A DNA stretch of 32,943 nt from Bacteroidales bacterium. GTDB lineage: Bacteria > Bacteroidota > Bacteroidia > Bacteroidales > VadinHA17. The stretch is from contig JAHYJA010000019.1 of NCBI GenBank assembly GCA_019429325.1, forward strand, positions 1-32,943, given 5' to 3'. The notes beneath the pieces were generated by a model that made no database searches, was not told where the DNA came from, and was given only the letters and a program-made list of their open reading frames with translations. Each line of letters starts with the position of its first letter. The stretch's first letter is position 1. The translations under genes and the position numbers were made by a program. Below, piece after piece: positions 9,429-25,705 of the stretch.

Positions 9429-11204
9429 TCAGTCACTCTTAAGGTAGTTAACCAGACCTTTCATCTCAAGTATCTGTTTCAGTTTCTCAGGCAGAGGCTG
9501 AAACCGGAAAAGTGAGGATCCTACAGTGATCTCACCCCTTTCAAGACTGACGTTTACCGGGTCGCCCTGTTTATAGGCTTCGACTACCTTCCTGCTGACG
9601 ATAAGGACGAGTCCCTGGTTTATCGAGGATCTATAGAAGATCCTGTTGACCGACTTTACTATTATTGCGGAAATTCCTGCATGGGAGAGACCTACAGATG
9701 GGTGTTCCCTTGAACTGCCGCAACCGAAATTCTCTCCGGCAATCATTATATCTCCGGGACGGACATTTCTGCTGAAAGCGGGATCAAAATCCTGGAAAAG
9801 GAGCGGTTTGATAGATTCCGGATCACTGCTCAGGATGTTATAAGTGTGTTTTCCCGCAAACATCAGGTCGGTATTAAGGTTGTCTGCCTCGCTGTAATCC
9901 CATATATTTCCATGCTTCCTGTTCTCGCCAGGTTTTATGACAACAGTTTTGCTCTGTTGTCTTACGTAAGGGTATGATTCAGGAAGCGGCTCTCTGCGGG
10001 GATCTGTGATCTTTCCTTCAATTGCGGATGCGGCTACTGTTGCGGGTGACGCAAGGTAGATCGAAGCTTTGCTGTTTCCCATTCTTCCCAGGAAATTTCT
10101 ATTGGCAGTAGAAATAACTGTATGATTATCAGCGGGTATGCCCTGGCCGGTACCCAGGCACGGACCACATGAAGGAGAGAGTATATTTGCTCCCGACTCA
10201 ATAAAAGTTGATATTAAGCCCTCTTCGATTGCCTGGAGGAATATTCTGCGCGAGGCAGGTATAATATGAAGCTGAAAGCCCTCCCTCACCGATTTTCCCC
10301 TTAAAATCTCCGCCGCAATTCTCAGGTCTTCGATGCGGCCATTGGTACAGGTACCGATCAGGCCCTCATGAACGATCGTTCCTGCAGTATCGGCGACTGA
10401 TTTAATGTTATCGACATGATGAGGTGCAGCCGCTAACGGAAAAAGACTTCCGAGGTCAATTTCGAGTTCACCTGAGTAATCTGCCCCTTCATCGGCCCAT
10501 ATCCCCTCCAATTTCTCTCCCAGATAGTCCTGCAACACTTCATCGGCAGGGAATACTGCATTTTTAGCTCCCATTTCCGAAGCAAGGTTTGATAGTGTCA
10601 TCCTGTCGGCTATCGAGAGGGAATCAACACCATTTCCATGATATTCAATTGACAGGTAATTTGCACCATCGGAACCTGTCATTCCTATGATCCACAATGC
10701 CAGATCCTTGGCACTTACTCCCTCCTTCAGGTGTCCCCTGAGATTTATTTTAAGTGACAAGGGGACCCTGAACCATGTTTCCCCTCTTTTCCATATTCCT
10801 GCAGACTCGGTGCGGTCGATTCCGGCGGCAAATGCATTGAATGCCCCTGCTGTTGATGTATGGCTGTCGCTCCCGACAATAAGCATACCCGGTTTTGCAT
10901 GTTCCGACATAATCTGGTGGCATATGCCTTTTCCTGAATCATAGAATTTTCGTATTGCCTGAGCAGCAACGATATCCCTTATGGCCTGGTATTGAGTAGC
11001 CAGTCCGGAATCTGCAGGAGGTGCGTTATGGTCGAGCACGACCAGTATCTGTTCAGGATCGGCGACGGTCTTACCTCCCATTTTCTGAAAGGTTTTAAAT
11101 ATGCTAAGAGTGTTGTCATGCGACAGAATAATATCTGGTCTGGCGAAAACTATTGTACCTGCGGGGGCTTTGAAGATTTTTTCAACGAAAGTCTGAGGTT
11201 TCAT
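9429..11204 (-). CDS. fused aconitase/isopropylmalate-dehydratase family hydro-lyase (second of two)
   Basis: The 591-residue protein carries both the large (LeuC-like) and small (LeuD-like) halves in one chain. The three [4Fe-4S] ligands are present: Cys286 in GTCTNGR, and Cys346 and Cys349 in SCGPCLG. Other family marks are GICHQIMSE (about 93-101), GSDSHTSTAG (111-120), TANRNFLGRMG (366-376) and LASPATVAASAI (384-395). The swivel domain starts near 436 with DNLNTDLM, where the family's usual NIDTD has asparagine in its second polar position. It contains GCGSSRE (494-500), whose Ser/Arg belong to the active site. Enzymes of this family isomerise hydroxy-acids such as isopropylmalate, citramalate, homocitrate or dimethylmalate. 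No leuA, leuB or homocitrate synthase is nearby, so the substrate cannot be read from context. A related fused enzyme lies just upstream. Confidence 0.88.
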   Translation of the reverse strand: MKPQTFVEKIFKAPAGTIVFARPDIILSHDNTLSIFKTFQKMGGKTVADPEQILVVLDHNAPPADSGLATQYQAIRDIVAAQAIRKFYDSGKGICHQIMSEHAKPGMLIVGSDSHTSTAGAFNAFAAGIDRTESAGIWKRGETWFRVPLSLKINLRGHLKEGVSAKDLALWIIGMTGSDGANYLSIEYHGNGVDSLSIADRMTLSNLASEMGAKNAVFPADEVLQDYLGEKLEGIWADEGADYSGELEIDLGSLFPLAAAPHHVDNIKSVADTAGTIVHEGLIGTCTNGRIEDLRIAAEILRGKSVREGFQLHIIPASRRIFLQAIEEGLISTFIESGANILSPSCGPCLGTGQGIPADNHTVISTANRNFLGRMGNSKASIYLASPATVAASAIEGKITDPRREPLPESYPYVRQQSKTVVIKPGENRKHGNIWDYSEADNLNTDLMFAGKHTYNILSSDPESIKPLLFQDFDPAFSRNVRPGDIMIAGENFGCGSSREHPSVGLSHAGISAIIVKSVNRIFYRSSINQGLVLIVSRKVVEAYKQGDPVNVSLERGEITVGSSLFRFQPLPEKLKQILEMKGLVNYLKSD

Positions 11205-11218
11205 GGGCGGAGGTGTTA

Positions 11219-11239
11219 CTGGTTGCTGGTTGCTGGTTA
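11219..11239. repeat. 7-bp tandem repeat, CTGGTTG type
   Basis: Three copies of CTGGTTG (the last ending CTGGTTA) lie immediately upstream of the start of the second hydratase gene. They share a CTGRTYR-like pattern with the second repeat 35 bases away. Confidence 0.75.
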
Positions 11240-11274
11240 ATTAGTGTTGTACGGAGGTTACTGAGCTACCGATT

Positions 11275-11297
11275 ACTGATCACTGATCACTGATTAC
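11275..11297. repeat. 7-bp tandem repeat, ACTGATC type
   Basis: Two exact copies of ACTGATC and a third reading ACTGATT follow each other, ending in AC. Together with the CTGGTTG repeat they fill much of the 119-base gap between the two hydratase genes. Short 7-bp arrays of this kind look like polymerase-slippage repeats, not protein-coding or CRISPR sequence. Confidence 0.75.
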
Positions 11298-11323
11298 CCG
11301 TCTTGTAGTCAGGCGGGATCTAA

Positions 11324-13138
11324 TCACCCAAGCAAGCCTCCCCTCTGATAGATTTCGAGCTGAACCTCAGAAAACGGATCAGCTATGACGGTGATCCCGT
11401 TCCGGAGGTTTTTAATTTCGCCTGAAATAAGGTTGATCCTGAGCAGATCCCCATCTCTCAGGCCGGCACCGCTGATGGAAGGACATGTTGCGATGGGGAA
11501 TGCAGCATTGATTGCATTTCTTTCGTAGATTGCCCCGAAAGATTCTGCAATGATAAGTGCTATCCCAAGCGATCTGAAACAATCGACTGCCTGCTGTCGG
11601 GAGCTCCCGCTGCCAAAGTTCTTTCCGGCGATCACAATATCGCCTGGCCCGGCGTTCTCAGCAAATTTCTCATAACCTTCCAGATTACCGAAGGTGTACC
11701 GGCCCATCTCTTTTATGTCAGTGATTGCCAGATGACTGTTATGGAAGATCATATCCGTATCGATATTGTCCCGGTCAATCATCCAGGCTTTTCCTTCGAT
11801 AACTACGGGTTTCTCAGGTTTTTTTTCAGAATGGGGCCGGCCGGTATCAGTTCTTTTTCCGGCGACAGGTGTTTCAAAGAGTGCCGGGTACTCCGGTATC
11901 CTTTCAGGAACAGTTATATATCCGGCCACTGCCGAGGCAGCGACGATTGCAGGAGATGCAAGAAACACGCTTCCTTTTCCCTGTTTTCCCGGGAAGTTTC
12001 TGTTCCCGGTGCTTATGGTCACTTCACCCGGACCATTCTGTCCGACCTGTCCTGCTGCGCATCCGGCGCATCCTGCGTTTGAGACGAGAGCCCCTGCATT
12101 CTTGAAAATTTCGATGAGTCCATGTGTGAGGCACTCATTCCATATTTTATCGGTTGCGGGTACAATTTTAAGGATCACCCCCGGCGCCACTCTCCTACCC
12201 CTGAGGATCTCTGCGACACTTCGCATATCATTCATACGTCCGTTCGTACAACTGCCTATAAAGGCACTGTCGATCTTCCGGCCGGATAATTCATCAGCAA
12301 CGACAGTATTGTGGGGCTCCCCGGGAAGTGAGATACGAGGACTGAATGAATTCACATCTATATCGAATACCTCGGAGTAAACTGCATCTTTGTCAGCAAA
12401 AACAGGATTAAATTCCGTTTTCGTTCTTTTTCTGCAATATTCTATCACTTCGTCTGACGGAGGAAACAGGATAATTATTGCACCCATTTCCGTGGCCATT
12501 GAGGAGATTGTGATTCTGTCGTCAAGCGAGAGCTTTTCTGCTGCATCTCCATAAATCTCAACGGATAAGCCAAGTAGTCTGCTGGCTCCGAAGATATTCA
12601 GGAGGTTAAGAACGATGTCTTTCGAAGTGATATTATGAGGGAAGGCTCCTGAGAGACTGATCCTGACCGACTGAGGAATTTTAAACCATACTTTTCCCCT
12701 GTGCCAGGCGGCGGCAATATCCATATCGCCCATTCCCTGGCCGAAAGCGCCGACAGCACCGAGAATGTTGGCATGGGAATCTGTTGAAACAGCTGTTGCT
12801 CCCGGGTAAACATAACCTTCATCGATAAGTAAATGAGTACCTATACCGGCGTCGATATCATAGATCCTGATCCCGTTTTCGCGAGCGAAAATACGGCATA
12901 TATGCTGATTTACAGCATATTTCTGATCTGAACCAGTCGGGTTGCAGTCGAAGGTGAACAGTGTTTTGACCGGATTTTCCACACGCAGGCTGAAATCCCT
13001 TATGTTTTTTACTACGTTCGCACCCCCGAAATCACGTGCCACACGTGCATCAATGTCAATGTCAACTATATCTCCAGGTTTAACAGTTTGATAACCTGAA
13101 TGTGCAGCCAGAATTTTCTCAATCAAGGTTAATGCCAT
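11324..13138 (-). CDS. fused aconitase/isopropylmalate-dehydratase family hydro-lyase (first of two)
   Basis: The protein has 604 residues, again a fusion of large and small subunits. The iron-sulfur cysteines are Cys297 (GSCTNGR), Cys357 and Cys360 (AGCAGCAAG). The substrate/metal region reads STDSHANILGAVGAFGQGMGD (starting near 118), and STGNRNFPGKQG and FLASPAIVAASAV precede a linker at about 410-450. The swivel domain has the canonical NIDTDMI (458-464) and GSGSSRQ (509-515). The differences from its neighbour, GCGSSRE versus GSGSSRQ and LNTD versus IDTD, argue for different substrates rather than recent duplication. It starts 38 bases after the AraC-family gene on the same strand, so it is probably in that transcript or controlled by that regulator. 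The Bacteroidota fused forms have no assigned substrate that I can name with certainty. Confidence 0.88.
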   Translation of the reverse strand: MALTLIEKILAAHSGYQTVKPGDIVDIDIDARVARDFGGANVVKNIRDFSLRVENPVKTLFTFDCNPTGSDQKYAVNQHICRIFARENGIRIYDIDAGIGTHLLIDEGYVYPGATAVSTDSHANILGAVGAFGQGMGDMDIAAAWHRGKVWFKIPQSVRISLSGAFPHNITSKDIVLNLLNIFGASRLLGLSVEIYGDAAEKLSLDDRITISSMATEMGAIIILFPPSDEVIEYCRKRTKTEFNPVFADKDAVYSEVFDIDVNSFSPRISLPGEPHNTVVADELSGRKIDSAFIGSCTNGRMNDMRSVAEILRGRRVAPGVILKIVPATDKIWNECLTHGLIEIFKNAGALVSNAGCAGCAAGQVGQNGPGEVTISTGNRNFPGKQGKGSVFLASPAIVAASAVAGYITVPERIPEYPALFETPVAGKRTDTGRPHSEKKPEKPVVIEGKAWMIDRDNIDTDMIFHNSHLAITDIKEMGRYTFGNLEGYEKFAENAGPGDIVIAGKNFGSGSSRQQAVDCFRSLGIALIIAESFGAIYERNAINAAFPIATCPSISGAGLRDGDLLRINLISGEIKNLRNGITVIADPFSEVQLEIYQRGGLLG

Positions 13139-13176: not shown

Positions 13177-14025
13177 TTATCTGAATTGTGCCCTGTAATC
13201 GCGCGGCGAGATACCTTCCGTTCTGCGGAACTGTTTGTTAAAGTTTGAGATGCTTGAAAAACCGCAATCAAATGCGATCTCGTTAATCTGGCTGTCAGTT
13301 TCTCTCAGAAGGTAGCAAGCCTTGTTAGTCCGTACCCTGTTGACGTATTCAACGAAGCCGGCACCCGAATTTTTCTTGAAGTACCTGCTAAATGCGAACG
13401 GGCTCATTTTAGCTACTTTCGCGACTTTATCGAGTGAGACGGGAGTGGAGTAGTTTTCTCTGATATAATTGTAGACGTCGTTCATCCTTTTATTGCCTTT
13501 TTCGTCAAAAGTCTGCCTGTAGTTTACTGAGCTGAGGGATGCCTTTTTTTCAGAGTCACATAATATTTTCAATACGCACAGGAAATCGATCATTTTCTCA
13601 ATACCTTTACTTTCGACCATATGAACCAGGTGTTTCTCTGCAGATCTGGCATCTTCGACTGAAAAAACAATTCCCCTTTCGGCTTCCCTGAGCAGTTCTC
13701 TGACACTGCTCATCTCATACTGGGAAAGCAGAGGTTCGCCCAGGGATGACAATTTAAAATGAACCATAATTCCGTGTTTGTCGGGAAGAGAATCCTTGCT
13801 TTTGTAATAATTCCAGCAATGAGGAACACTGCCGGCAACAAGCACCATGTCGTAATGATCGAACAGCTCAACGCTGTCACCAATAATTCTTGTTCCGTTG
13901 CTTTTAATATTGAGCGCCAGTTCATATTCGGGGTGGAAGTGCCAGAAACTGCCAGCATCTGTTATATAGGCAGCCCGGAATCCGCCTCCGTCGTCATATT
14001 CGATTTTTTCAAGTTCAGCGATCAT
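13177..14025 (-). CDS. AraC-family transcriptional regulator
   Basis: From the ATG at 14025 the product has 282 residues. The frame extends upstream to a TTG at 14070, but that would place the start inside a promoter, so 14025 is preferred. The N-terminal part is a cupin-like effector domain: FWHFHPEYELAL, then G.RIIGD, D.VLVAG..PHCW, and a mostly alpha region with two or more helices (SVRELLREAERGI). The C-terminal 100 residues hold two helix-turn-helix motifs: PVSLDKVAKVAKMSPFAFSR, then INEIAFDCGFSSISNFNKQF, followed by the family signature F.R..G.SP.DYR. It should sense a small ligand through the cupin and bind direct repeats. The two aconitase-family genes follow directly, making them the likely targets. 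A 13-bp direct repeat overlaps its own promoter. Confidence 0.9.
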   Translation of the reverse strand: MIAELEKIEYDDGGGFRAAYITDAGSFWHFHPEYELALNIKSNGTRIIGDSVELFDHYDMVLVAGSVPHCWNYYKSKDSLPDKHGIMVHFKLSSLGEPLLSQYEMSSVRELLREAERGIVFSVEDARSAEKHLVHMVESKGIEKMIDFLCVLKILCDSEKKASLSSVNYRQTFDEKGNKRMNDVYNYIRENYSTPVSLDKVAKVAKMSPFAFSRYFKKNSGAGFVEYVNRVRTNKACYLLRETDSQINEIAFDCGFSSISNFNKQFRRTEGISPRDYRAQFR

Positions 14026-14058
14026 GTCTGTCAGTTTTAGAGGGGGGAAGGTATTACC

Positions 14059-14091
14059 CAAATTTAGCAAAATTTTATCATCGGGTGCAAA
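14059..14091 (-). promoter_or_regulatory. promoter of the AraC-family gene
   Basis: On the minus strand TTTG (14091-14088) and TAAATTTG (14066-14059) are separated by 21 bases, a full match to the Bacteroidetes consensus. A start near 14052 would give a leader of about 27 nt before the ATG at 14025. This promoter is the main reason to discard the TTG start at 14070. Confidence 0.65.
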
Positions 14092-14099: not shown

Positions 14100-14119
14100 T
14101 GTATTTTTTTAATAATTAA

Positions 14120-14151
14120 TTTGATAATTAAATTTTTTATTATTATATTTG
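14120..14151 (+). promoter_or_regulatory. promoter of the candidate ncRNA
   Basis: TTTG at 14120-14123 and TATATTTG at 14144-14151 have a 20-base spacer, a complete Bacteroidetes promoter pointing right. No open reading frame begins within the next 370 bases that shows coding character. It lies back-to-back with the AraC-gene promoter in a very A/T-rich stretch. Confidence 0.65.
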
Positions 14152-14156
14152 AAACC

Positions 14157-14375
14157 AAGCTCATGCTATTGGTATAAGAGGAGATGAGCAAGGGTTGGGA
14201 GTGAAAATCATCAGGATTGTATTGCAGACATTGACTTTCACATCTGGAGCCTGCGTGACAGCGCCAGCTTGAACAAGGTTCCATCCTTTTATCAGACAGT
14301 AGACACGGGAATTATCTCAGAAATAAAACCCGCTCCCTGATTCTCACTACAACCCTTCCTCCTCTTATTTTTTTT
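14157..14375 (+). ncRNA. candidate structured RNA with paired ends, possibly 6S RNA
   Basis: The stretch 14174-14210 pairs with 14338-14368. It forms 10 bp (ATAAGAGGAG/CTCCTCTTAT), a 6/1 internal loop, 8 bp (AAGGGTTG/CAACCCTT), a small internal loop, and 10 positions with one mismatch (GTGA..ATCA/TGAT..TCAC). The right arm runs directly into T8 (14368-14375), as in an intrinsic terminator. A complete promoter ends at 14151, so a transcript of about 215-220 nt is expected. Inside, TGGAGCCT and AGGTTCCA can close another 8-bp stem around about 23 bases, with unpaired sequence between the two stems. A long rod with paired ends, a central open region and an inner hairpin at about 200 nt is the architecture of 6S RNA. 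RNase P and tmRNA hallmarks are not seen. The RNA itself is well supported by promoter, fold and terminator; its identity is an inference. Confidence 0.6.
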
Positions 14376-14441
14376 GGCATTAACTGATCACGGGGACAAT
14401 CACTGGCCGCAAATAACGTTTTTTTTACCGGAAAAATGAAT

Positions 14442-14525: not shown

Positions 14526-15242
14526 ATGAAGACATATATAAGAAGAAGGGAAAAGAACAAAACTCTTGTTGTTCTGTTCGGAGGCTGGGGAACTGATGAG
14601 AATGTATTTACCCCGTTGTGCAATGATGAATTTGATTTTATCCTGTTCTATAACTATTCTGCCGATGAAGCGCTGGTGCTTCCCGAAATGAAGGTTTACA
14701 GTTCAATTATCATGATTGGATGGTCGCTTGGTGTATGGGCCTCAGAATATCTGTTGCCCAGGACAGGGATTAAGCCAGACATCACGATAGCCGTTAATGG
14801 CACGCCGGTGCCTGCCGACGACCGGTATGGGATACCTCTCAAGGTATTTGAAGGCACCCTTAACAATCTAACCGAGGAGAATATGGAGAAATTCTATCTT
14901 CGAACATTCGGGGATAAGAAAACCTACCAGCGAAATATTGACAGGATCCCTCACCGGTCAATAAAATCGCTGCATGATGAACTGCGGTGGATGTATAACC
15001 GTATAATGGAGCAAAAAGAGCCCGGTTTCAGATGGGATTATGCAGTTATCAGTGAAATCGACAGGGTTTTTCCGGCGGCAAACCTCAACAGTTACTGGGA
15101 AAAGGAAAAGAGAACAAAGCATATCAGGGTTCCTCTCCCCCATTACTTTTTTCATGAATGGAAGAACTACAGTGACTTCATTGATTTTGTAGTGAATTAC
15201 AAAGTCAGGAAAAGAAGAGGCAGTGTTGCATACAGGGATTGA
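14526..15242 (+). CDS. bioG: pimeloyl-ACP methyl ester esterase BioG (DUF452 family)
   Basis: From the ATG at 14526 the protein has 238 residues and begins MKTY, as family members do. An in-frame ATG at 14436 would add 30 residues without homology and would overlap a promoter box. It is an alpha/beta hydrolase: the oxyanion strand LVVLFGGWGTDE comes first, then FDFILFYNYS, and the nucleophile elbow GWSLGVWAS with Ser67. VNGTPVPADDRYGIP and F.GTL..L.EENM.KFY are also typical of BioG. A C-terminal PHYFFHEW segment supplies the likely catalytic histidine. BioG removes the methyl ester from pimeloyl-ACP at the end of the BioC-initiated route to the biotin pimeloyl moiety. No other bio gene is in the window, so it must act with genes elsewhere. 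It converges on the YihY gene with a six-base gap. Confidence 0.82.
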   Translation: MKTYIRRREKNKTLVVLFGGWGTDENVFTPLCNDEFDFILFYNYSADEALVLPEMKVYSSIIMIGWSLGVWASEYLLPRTGIKPDITIAVNGTPVPADDRYGIPLKVFEGTLNNLTEENMEKFYLRTFGDKKTYQRNIDRIPHRSIKSLHDELRWMYNRIMEQKEPGFRWDYAVISEIDRVFPAANLNSYWEKEKRTKHIRVPLPHYFFHEWKNYSDFIDFVVNYKVRKRRGSVAYRD

Positions 15243-25422: not shown

Positions 25423-25439
25423 TGTGAATTCAATGCATT

Positions 25440-25600
25440 TTCCGGCAGGTCTTCTGACTTATCCCGGTTTCATAAAGCCTTCCCATCCGCCAGCCGGCGG
25501 ACAGTGGCAGGTATTTTACGAAACCATCATCGTTAGAACGATCGGGCATCACAGCAGCGGGTACTGTTGCGGATTCAAACCGCATTCCCTTTTCACTGCA
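25440..25600 (-). promoter_or_regulatory. cobalamin riboswitch
   Basis: Read on the minus strand, the conserved order of the adenosylcobalamin aptamer is present. It begins with AAAAGGGAATGCGG and AATCCGC, then ACAGTACCCGCTGCTGTGA. The B12-box GCCACTG follows (25510-25504), then GATGGGAAGGC and finally AGTCAGAAGACCTGCC (25459-25444). A perfect TCCGCC/GGCGGA hairpin (25486-25501) fills the variable arm. It stands about 100 bases upstream of btuB and should lower uptake-gene expression when cobalamin is bound. The whole 360-base gap between btuB and the LacI-type gene is accounted for by promoter, aptamer and leader hairpin. Confidence 0.93.
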
Positions 25601-25634
25601 AGGATAAAGGAATCATTGCAGTACCGGAACGTGA

Positions 25635-25642
25635 CAAAGATA
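25635..25642 (-). promoter_or_regulatory. -7 box of the B12 uptake operon
   Basis: On the minus strand TATCTTTG (25642-25635) is a perfect TAnnTTTG box about 35 bases upstream of the riboswitch. No exact TTTG is found 19-21 bases farther up; a TTTTC lies near 25667-25671. Confidence 0.55.
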
Positions 25643-25705
25643 GATAATTTTCTTAAGTTGAGCGGAGAAAACACAAGGAGATATCAACAACGAAGGATAC
25701 CGGCA

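Follow-up and report, generated by a model that had tools for sequence, protein, structure and literature searches.

Which kind of RNA, if any, is encoded at positions 14157-14375 (+) of contig JAHYJA010000019.1 from a Bacteroidales bacterium (assembly GCA_019429325.1)? For the window, meaning the whole stretch of 32,943 nucleotides (nt) analysed here, to whose forward strand all coordinates refer, a sequence-only reading had proposed at this locus a structured RNA of roughly 215 nt expressed from a promoter of its own, possibly the 6S RNA of this lineage. The former proposal is borne out by the promoter pattern and by covariation, and the latter found no support. The locus looks like a stand-alone RNA gene with its own promoter, a rod closed at its ends and a T8 run (Table 1). 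Sequence and comparison reveal this promoter, a covarying rod, an end resembling a terminator and two unpaired strands that hardly vary. As to how the RNA acts, we tentatively favour, at somewhat less than even chances, a new family of trans-acting regulatory RNA, encoded by a stand-alone gene and carrying a two-strand binding module.

The promoter read earlier (TTTG, a 20-nt spacing and the −7 box) is present and follows a pattern that we take to be of the Bacteroidota type. Regular-expression searches recovered the −7 box upstream of the RNA in 68 of 70 loci and the complete TTTG-N17-23-TAnnTTT arrangement in 60. The T8 run claimed for the end of the 3′ arm is likewise there, and by visual inspection a T-rich run terminates the RNA in most relatives.

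Folding of the window RNA by itself, at −61.4 kcal/mol (z −2.26; 4 of 200 shuffles equally good), is only modestly better than chance and thus no more than suggestive. Sequence comparison settles what folding leaves modest, in favour of a real structured RNA. In an unfitted 30-row alignment (28 distinct sequences), 11 of 36 pairs show two-sided changes and 94.0% of cells are paired, values reached by none of 500 shuffles, while the number of further pair types was reached by 208 of 500. A covariance model, R1, was built from 30 blastn-found rows. Among 70 loci aligned with it (63 distinct), 28 of the 36 pairs changed on both sides and 92.7% of cells are paired (0/500 shuffles for these values), in an alignment that is fitted to the model structure and so leans towards it; many of these loci lie on the same contigs as the blastn set, and the two sets are not independent. 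An offset of 1 to 3 columns between the partners lowered pairing in the 70-locus alignment to 40-58%. The proposed pairing of 14174-14210 with 14338-14368 is confirmed in the helices AAGAGGAG/CTCCTCTT, AGGGT/ACCCT and GTGAAAATCA/TGATTCTCAC, the last with one A-C mismatch in the window, and the paired arms are kept in relatives. The inner 8-bp stem also proposed is present as TGGAGCCT/AGGTTCCA with one G-U, and the second pair of P4 is unformed in 22 of 63 rows.

Two unpaired strands flank the variable P2 hairpin and remain nearly constant while the surrounding helices vary. In GTDB genomes, where loci were collected by an exact match to the 23-mer of strand 1, P2 is rewritten between genera yet still pairs, and strand 2 is nearly unchanged. 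Because that 23-mer was used for picking, the exactness of strand 1 in this set is no evidence; the constancy of strand 2, which played no part in the picking, does count. For strand 1 the point is carried by the 30 blastn-found relatives, all exact at this strand although their helices vary. Within its own genome, the 20-nt core of strand 1 occurs once, allowing up to 3 mismatches.

Blastn with 14100-14400 gave matches in 39 of 60 genomes. The genus contributed 36 genomes, the window's own included; 34 of these matched and 33 hold the RNA itself, and in G017 a weak match covers the upstream part only. The aligned relatives keep the promoter, the paired ends and the T-run, together with long unchanged unpaired blocks. 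The exact 23-mer marks 85 GTDB stretches, comprising 77 core RNAs and 8 short units discussed below (L056, L080, L088, L102, L104, L137-L139). All 85 come from metagenome-assembled genomes (MAGs), 84 of them with Bacteroidota-type titles (one 'Rikenella microfusus'); the sole Bacillota-titled stretch, short unit L139 (JAKPZU010000102.1), points either to mis-binning of the contig or to transfer on a mobile element. Among the 80 stretches listed, 74 of 75 core RNAs score above 75 bits, including four truncated where their contigs end; the other, L131, contains an N interruption. Diverged copies in other genera score 100-121 bits.

Across the window's family, the covariance model finds a match in 79 of 117 genomes, spread over 6 of the 15 genera, and none in the other 38, under strict filters that could miss diverged copies; G874 matches through a short unit only and G872 through an N-interrupted core. 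The same filters gave no match in genus-mates G890 (94% complete) and G883 (100% complete). One copy per genome is usual. The MAG G879 carries two full-length copies on different contigs (L078 and L114, 207.5 and 208.8 bits) and may be a mixed bin. Beyond the family, neither 295 genomes sampled from the order nor 395 from the class yielded a convincing copy, with 6-8 candidates scored per genome. The order sample gave five matches, three of them in the known genus, and the remaining two (G305, G282) were dismissed on inspection as a low-complexity hairpin and a chance-like match; the class search returned the own genome alone. A 20-mer search at up to 2 mismatches hit 16 of 393 order genomes, three of the known genus at 0 mismatches and the remaining 13 with 2 each, where a reversed control gave 8. 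A scan with the Rfam library found no match of weight for the RNA stretch. These results define a real RNA family without an Rfam match, restricted, as far as sampled, to part of one Bacteroidales family.

Indirect evidence for transcription comes from a public phage record. BK014122.1 (L176), a single-stranded RNA phage from activated sludge, is identical at positions 1-135 to the L114 RNA in the sense direction, starts 12 nt past the −7 box of L114, and after 135 nt changes sharply into a strong hairpin followed by phage genes. Leviviruses carry a 5′ hairpin. Because its first 135 nt are 100% identical to a bacterial genome and the identity breaks off sharply where the strong hairpin starts, the record is probably a chimera of complementary DNA or of assembly. 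In that case the RNA would have been among the RNAs of the sludge, and it is probably transcribed. A phage that truly carries the host RNA is the less likely alternative. A weak match in a phage collection (H3, E 0.8) was ignored.

Strand 1 also recurs outside the long RNA. Short, terminator-like rods of the form AAG-stem-motif-stem-CTTTTT carry it, often changed, in 10 of the 36 genus genomes, and exact copies lie in the eight GTDB units and in L141, a 71.6-kb IMG/VR contig. Among viral contigs strand 1 was present in that one alone and 18 nt of strand 2 in none; plasmid records gave no match. The L080 unit adjoins ParA- and single-strand-binding-like genes (by eye), a plasmid-type setting. 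In L104 and L141 the strand 2 core appears, by eye, to be joined directly to strand 1 inside the closing stem, resembling a circular permutation of the two-strand module. Tandem rods were also noted in L138 (2700-3900, −), L056, L031, L038, L137, L139 and L041, where a second rod (GAGGCGGTACT...AGTACCGCCTC) with a recurring inner stretch, GCAGCGAGACAT, comes after the strand-1 unit; Rfam scans found no family on those of L138, L056, L038, L137, L139 and L031. A SAM-I/IV riboswitch lies at 1166-1261 of L038, about 80 nt downstream of a short-rod pair.

We infer that strands 1 and 2 would form one binding module for a cellular factor, most likely a protein, so that the RNA would act as a ribonucleoprotein (RNP). 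The 5′ arm could either pair with the 3′ arm, closing the rod, or fold back so as to mask strand 1 at its UUUCAC end, and the RNA could thereby switch between an open and a masked state; the short hairpins would be decoys or hijackers competing for this factor. All six inner pairs between the 5′ arm and strand 1 are possible in 57 of 63 distinct sequences, and all six outer pairs between the two arms in 28. With strand 1 fixed in the set, this inner complementarity is one-sided and may reflect plain conservation of the arm. Folding favours the inner pairing in L112, L116, L126 and L113. Several observations weigh against the proposal. Folding places most sequences in the outer rod (mean inner pairing 0.10), strand 2 is missing from the majority of short units (by eye), and the RNA is not known to have a partner or target. 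The RNA is moreover tied by position and joint presence to the adjacent gene bioG, which better fits a leader or local regulator. Since short units occur in only 10 of the 36 genus genomes and are absent from the own genome, decoys would not be general. The wider proposition, a new class of RNP RNA in part of one Bacteroidales family whose module has been copied as a decoy by plasmid- and phage-borne terminator hairpins, we consider unlikely.

Separate short units with an unpaired stretch in common would also be expected if strand 1 (and strand 2) were the seed of a base-pairing small RNA (sRNA) for several messenger RNAs, with the short hairpins as paralogues of the same seed; we regard this as possible, if somewhat unlikely. 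A seed of 23 exact nt plus a second strand would be long by general knowledge. The own genome holds no match to the complement of the 20-nt core at up to 3 mismatches, and the bioG start region, the one target searched, shows no excess pairing: against mononucleotide-shuffled starts (n = 62), strand 1 paired worse (−10.6 versus −12.6 kcal/mol) and strand 2 slightly better (−8.1 versus −7.5 kcal/mol), and an antisense action there was rejected. A precedent exists in the FopS sRNAs of Bacteroides thetaiotaomicron, which, according to PMC11697453, comprise 14 paralogues with a common single-stranded seed whose sequence is also reported in a phage. Several short RNAs with one common unpaired stretch are the likeness, whereas the window RNA is a long closed rod with two opposed invariant strands. 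As for paralogy of this type, short units occur in 10 of the 36 genus genomes, and the own genome has one copy only.

A cis-acting leader or attenuator of bioG, in which termination at P1 and the T-run or read-through, perhaps set by a ligand of the two-strand module, would govern the gene, was named as an alternative by the sequence-only reading and seems rather unlikely. It draws on position: in 63 of 76 core loci the RNA is followed directly by bioG in the same orientation, and nine of the 13 others have at most 531 bases after the motif. L099, outside the 63, has bioG by protein search and gap scan; the copy in L112 looks broken (by eye). In 18 of 57 loci (17 diverged and L101) the bioG ATG lies 13-19 nt past the modelled RNA end without an intervening TAnnTTTG, and there a leader is possible. 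The gap is at least 40 nt in the other 39 loci, of which 29 hold a TAnnTTTG box; in most loci of the window's genus a promoter-like box separates RNA and gene. Of these boxes, 26 are TATCTTTG or TATATTTG at 49-72 nt from the ATG; the window's own, TACCTTTG, is a weak case at 84 nt. The bioG finder of this gap scan was strict and missed some copies. Joint presence also speaks for a leader: a protein search recovered bioG from 5 of the 6 RNA-positive family genomes but from 1 of the 18 RNA-negative ones, and from none of 4 genomes outside the family. Diverged copies could have escaped this search, and several of the genomes are incomplete. This search showed no bioG in the RNA-less genus-mates G890 and G883. 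The association is not strict: L083 and L125 have the RNA and no bioG despite thousands of bases downstream, and G873/L170 has bioG without the RNA. Other neighbours are conserved too. RNA and bioG thus go together, not strictly, within a neighbourhood conserved as a whole. Among the short units, 3 of the 6 with open reading frames (ORFs) listed (L080, L088, L141) are followed by a gene running the opposite way and are for that reason not leaders.

What remains of the 6S proposal is the size and the rod shape, some 180-200 nt long and widely open inside, and we judge a 6S-like RNA that binds RNA polymerase, whether the 6S of the lineage or an Ms1-like analogue, highly improbable. Identification as 6S by homology was rejected. 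Scans with RF00013, as proposed earlier, RF01693 and RF01685 gave no match in the own genome, and RF01693 gave none in the window RNA even at E 10; the silence of RF01685 says little, because it matched no control genome. RF01693 is the Bacteroidales-1 RNA, annotated in Rfam as '6S-Bacteroidales RNA suggested'. It resembles the window RNA in several respects: it measures about 180 nt, has ends able to pair (by eye) and conserved strands around an inner hairpin domain, and occurs once in each of its 78 positive genomes of the order sample. Its distribution could speak for a 6S-like role of the window RNA, with RF01693 in 0 of 38 RNA-bearing genomes against 78 of 295 genomes of the order. No R1 match of the order sample falls in an RF01693-positive genome. 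The RNA-less family genome G246, however, also lacks RF01693, so the exclusion may only reflect family. By eye, no resemblance is seen between the invariant strands and the RF01693 consensus, and no neighbour family is common to the RNA loci and the 12 RF01693 loci compared; the sole protein similarity in this test (about 30% identity, L146) concerned proteins flanking two short units rather than the core RNA. Usually one copy per genome would suit a 6S-like function, and the lack of a match in the two near-complete genus-mates, under the strict filters, may speak against a housekeeping role. Ms1 of Actinobacteria, according to PMC9130861, is related to 6S, was recognised by structure and gene neighbourhood and was shown to bind the RNA polymerase core; it belongs to another phylum.

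A coding peptide was rejected, since the frame CIADIDFHI that runs through strand 1 in ORFs of L102, L104 and partly L141 is broken or altered in residues in several short units.

Table 1. Features of the RNA locus and its flanking genes in the window.
Feature	Position	Strand	Details
AraC-type regulator	13177-14070	−	divergent; upstream neighbour of the RNA
Promoter	14120-14151	+	TTTG 14120-14123, 20 nt, TATATTTG 14144-14151; direct reading
Small 5′ hairpin	14155-14172	+	CCAA...TTGG; kept in many, not all, genus-mates (by eye)
RNA gene	14157-14375	+	~215 nt; start placed from the promoter, end at the T-run
P1, 5′ strand	14176-14183	+	AAGAGGAG; 8/8 pairs with two-sided changes in relatives
Second rod helix, 5′ strand	14191-14195	+	AGGGT; 5/5 pairs with two-sided changes
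Possible switching arm (5′ arm)	14201-14210	+	GTGAAAATCA; can pair with 14338-14347 or 14232-14241
Strand 1, invariant	14219-14241	+	GTATTGCAGACATTGACTTTCAC; exact in 30/30 blastn-found relatives
P2, 5′ strand	14246-14251	+	GGAGCC, variable hairpin; 5/6 pairs with two-sided changes
Hairpin inside P2	14260-14269	+	AGCGCCAGCT; replaced in other genera
P2, 3′ strand	14277-14282	+	GGTTCC; partner of 14246-14251
Strand 2, nearly invariant	14285-14303	+	CCTTTTATCAGACAGTAGA; a few loci differ, e.g. L111
P4	14306-14332	+	CGGG 14306-14309 / CCCG 14329-14332
3′ arm, outer helix	14338-14347	+	TGATTCTCAC; 7/10 pairs with two-sided changes, 85.6% of cells paired
Second rod helix, 3′ strand	14352-14356	+	ACCCT; partner of 14191-14195
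P1, 3′ strand	14359-14366	+	CTCCTCTT; pairs with 14176-14183, followed by A and T8
T8 run	14368-14375	+	intrinsic-terminator-like with P1; direct reading
bioG	14526-15242	+	pimeloyl-ACP methyl esterase family; start set by comparison with relatives; associated flanking gene outside the RNA

The AraC-type gene and bioG adjoin the RNA in most loci. A longer bioG ORF starting at 14436 matches PF04301 (E 8.3e-36). A BrkB-family gene lies beyond bioG, and beyond the AraC-type gene two adjacent, paralogous fusions of aconitase/isopropylmalate-dehydratase (LeuCD-like) large and small subunits occupy 9429-13138 (−) and are kept in many relatives; one guess is that they belong to a chain-elongation pathway linked to pimelate. 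Elsewhere in the window, an ordinary Cobalamin riboswitch (RF00174, 100.7 bits) at 25427-25643 (−) precedes a TonB-type-receptor-like gene and an uptake cluster (by eye).

Searches of titles, abstracts and passages of the open-licence literature, by text and not by sequence, found no published description of this RNA, PMC11697453, PMC7366714, PMC2864571, PMC8743537 and PMC9130861 included. The locus adds to uncultured bacteria a well-supported structured RNA family, covarying and probably transcribed, whose strand 1 offers an exact bait for finding its partner. If the short hairpins are decoys, mobile elements would be copying the binding site of a host RNA.
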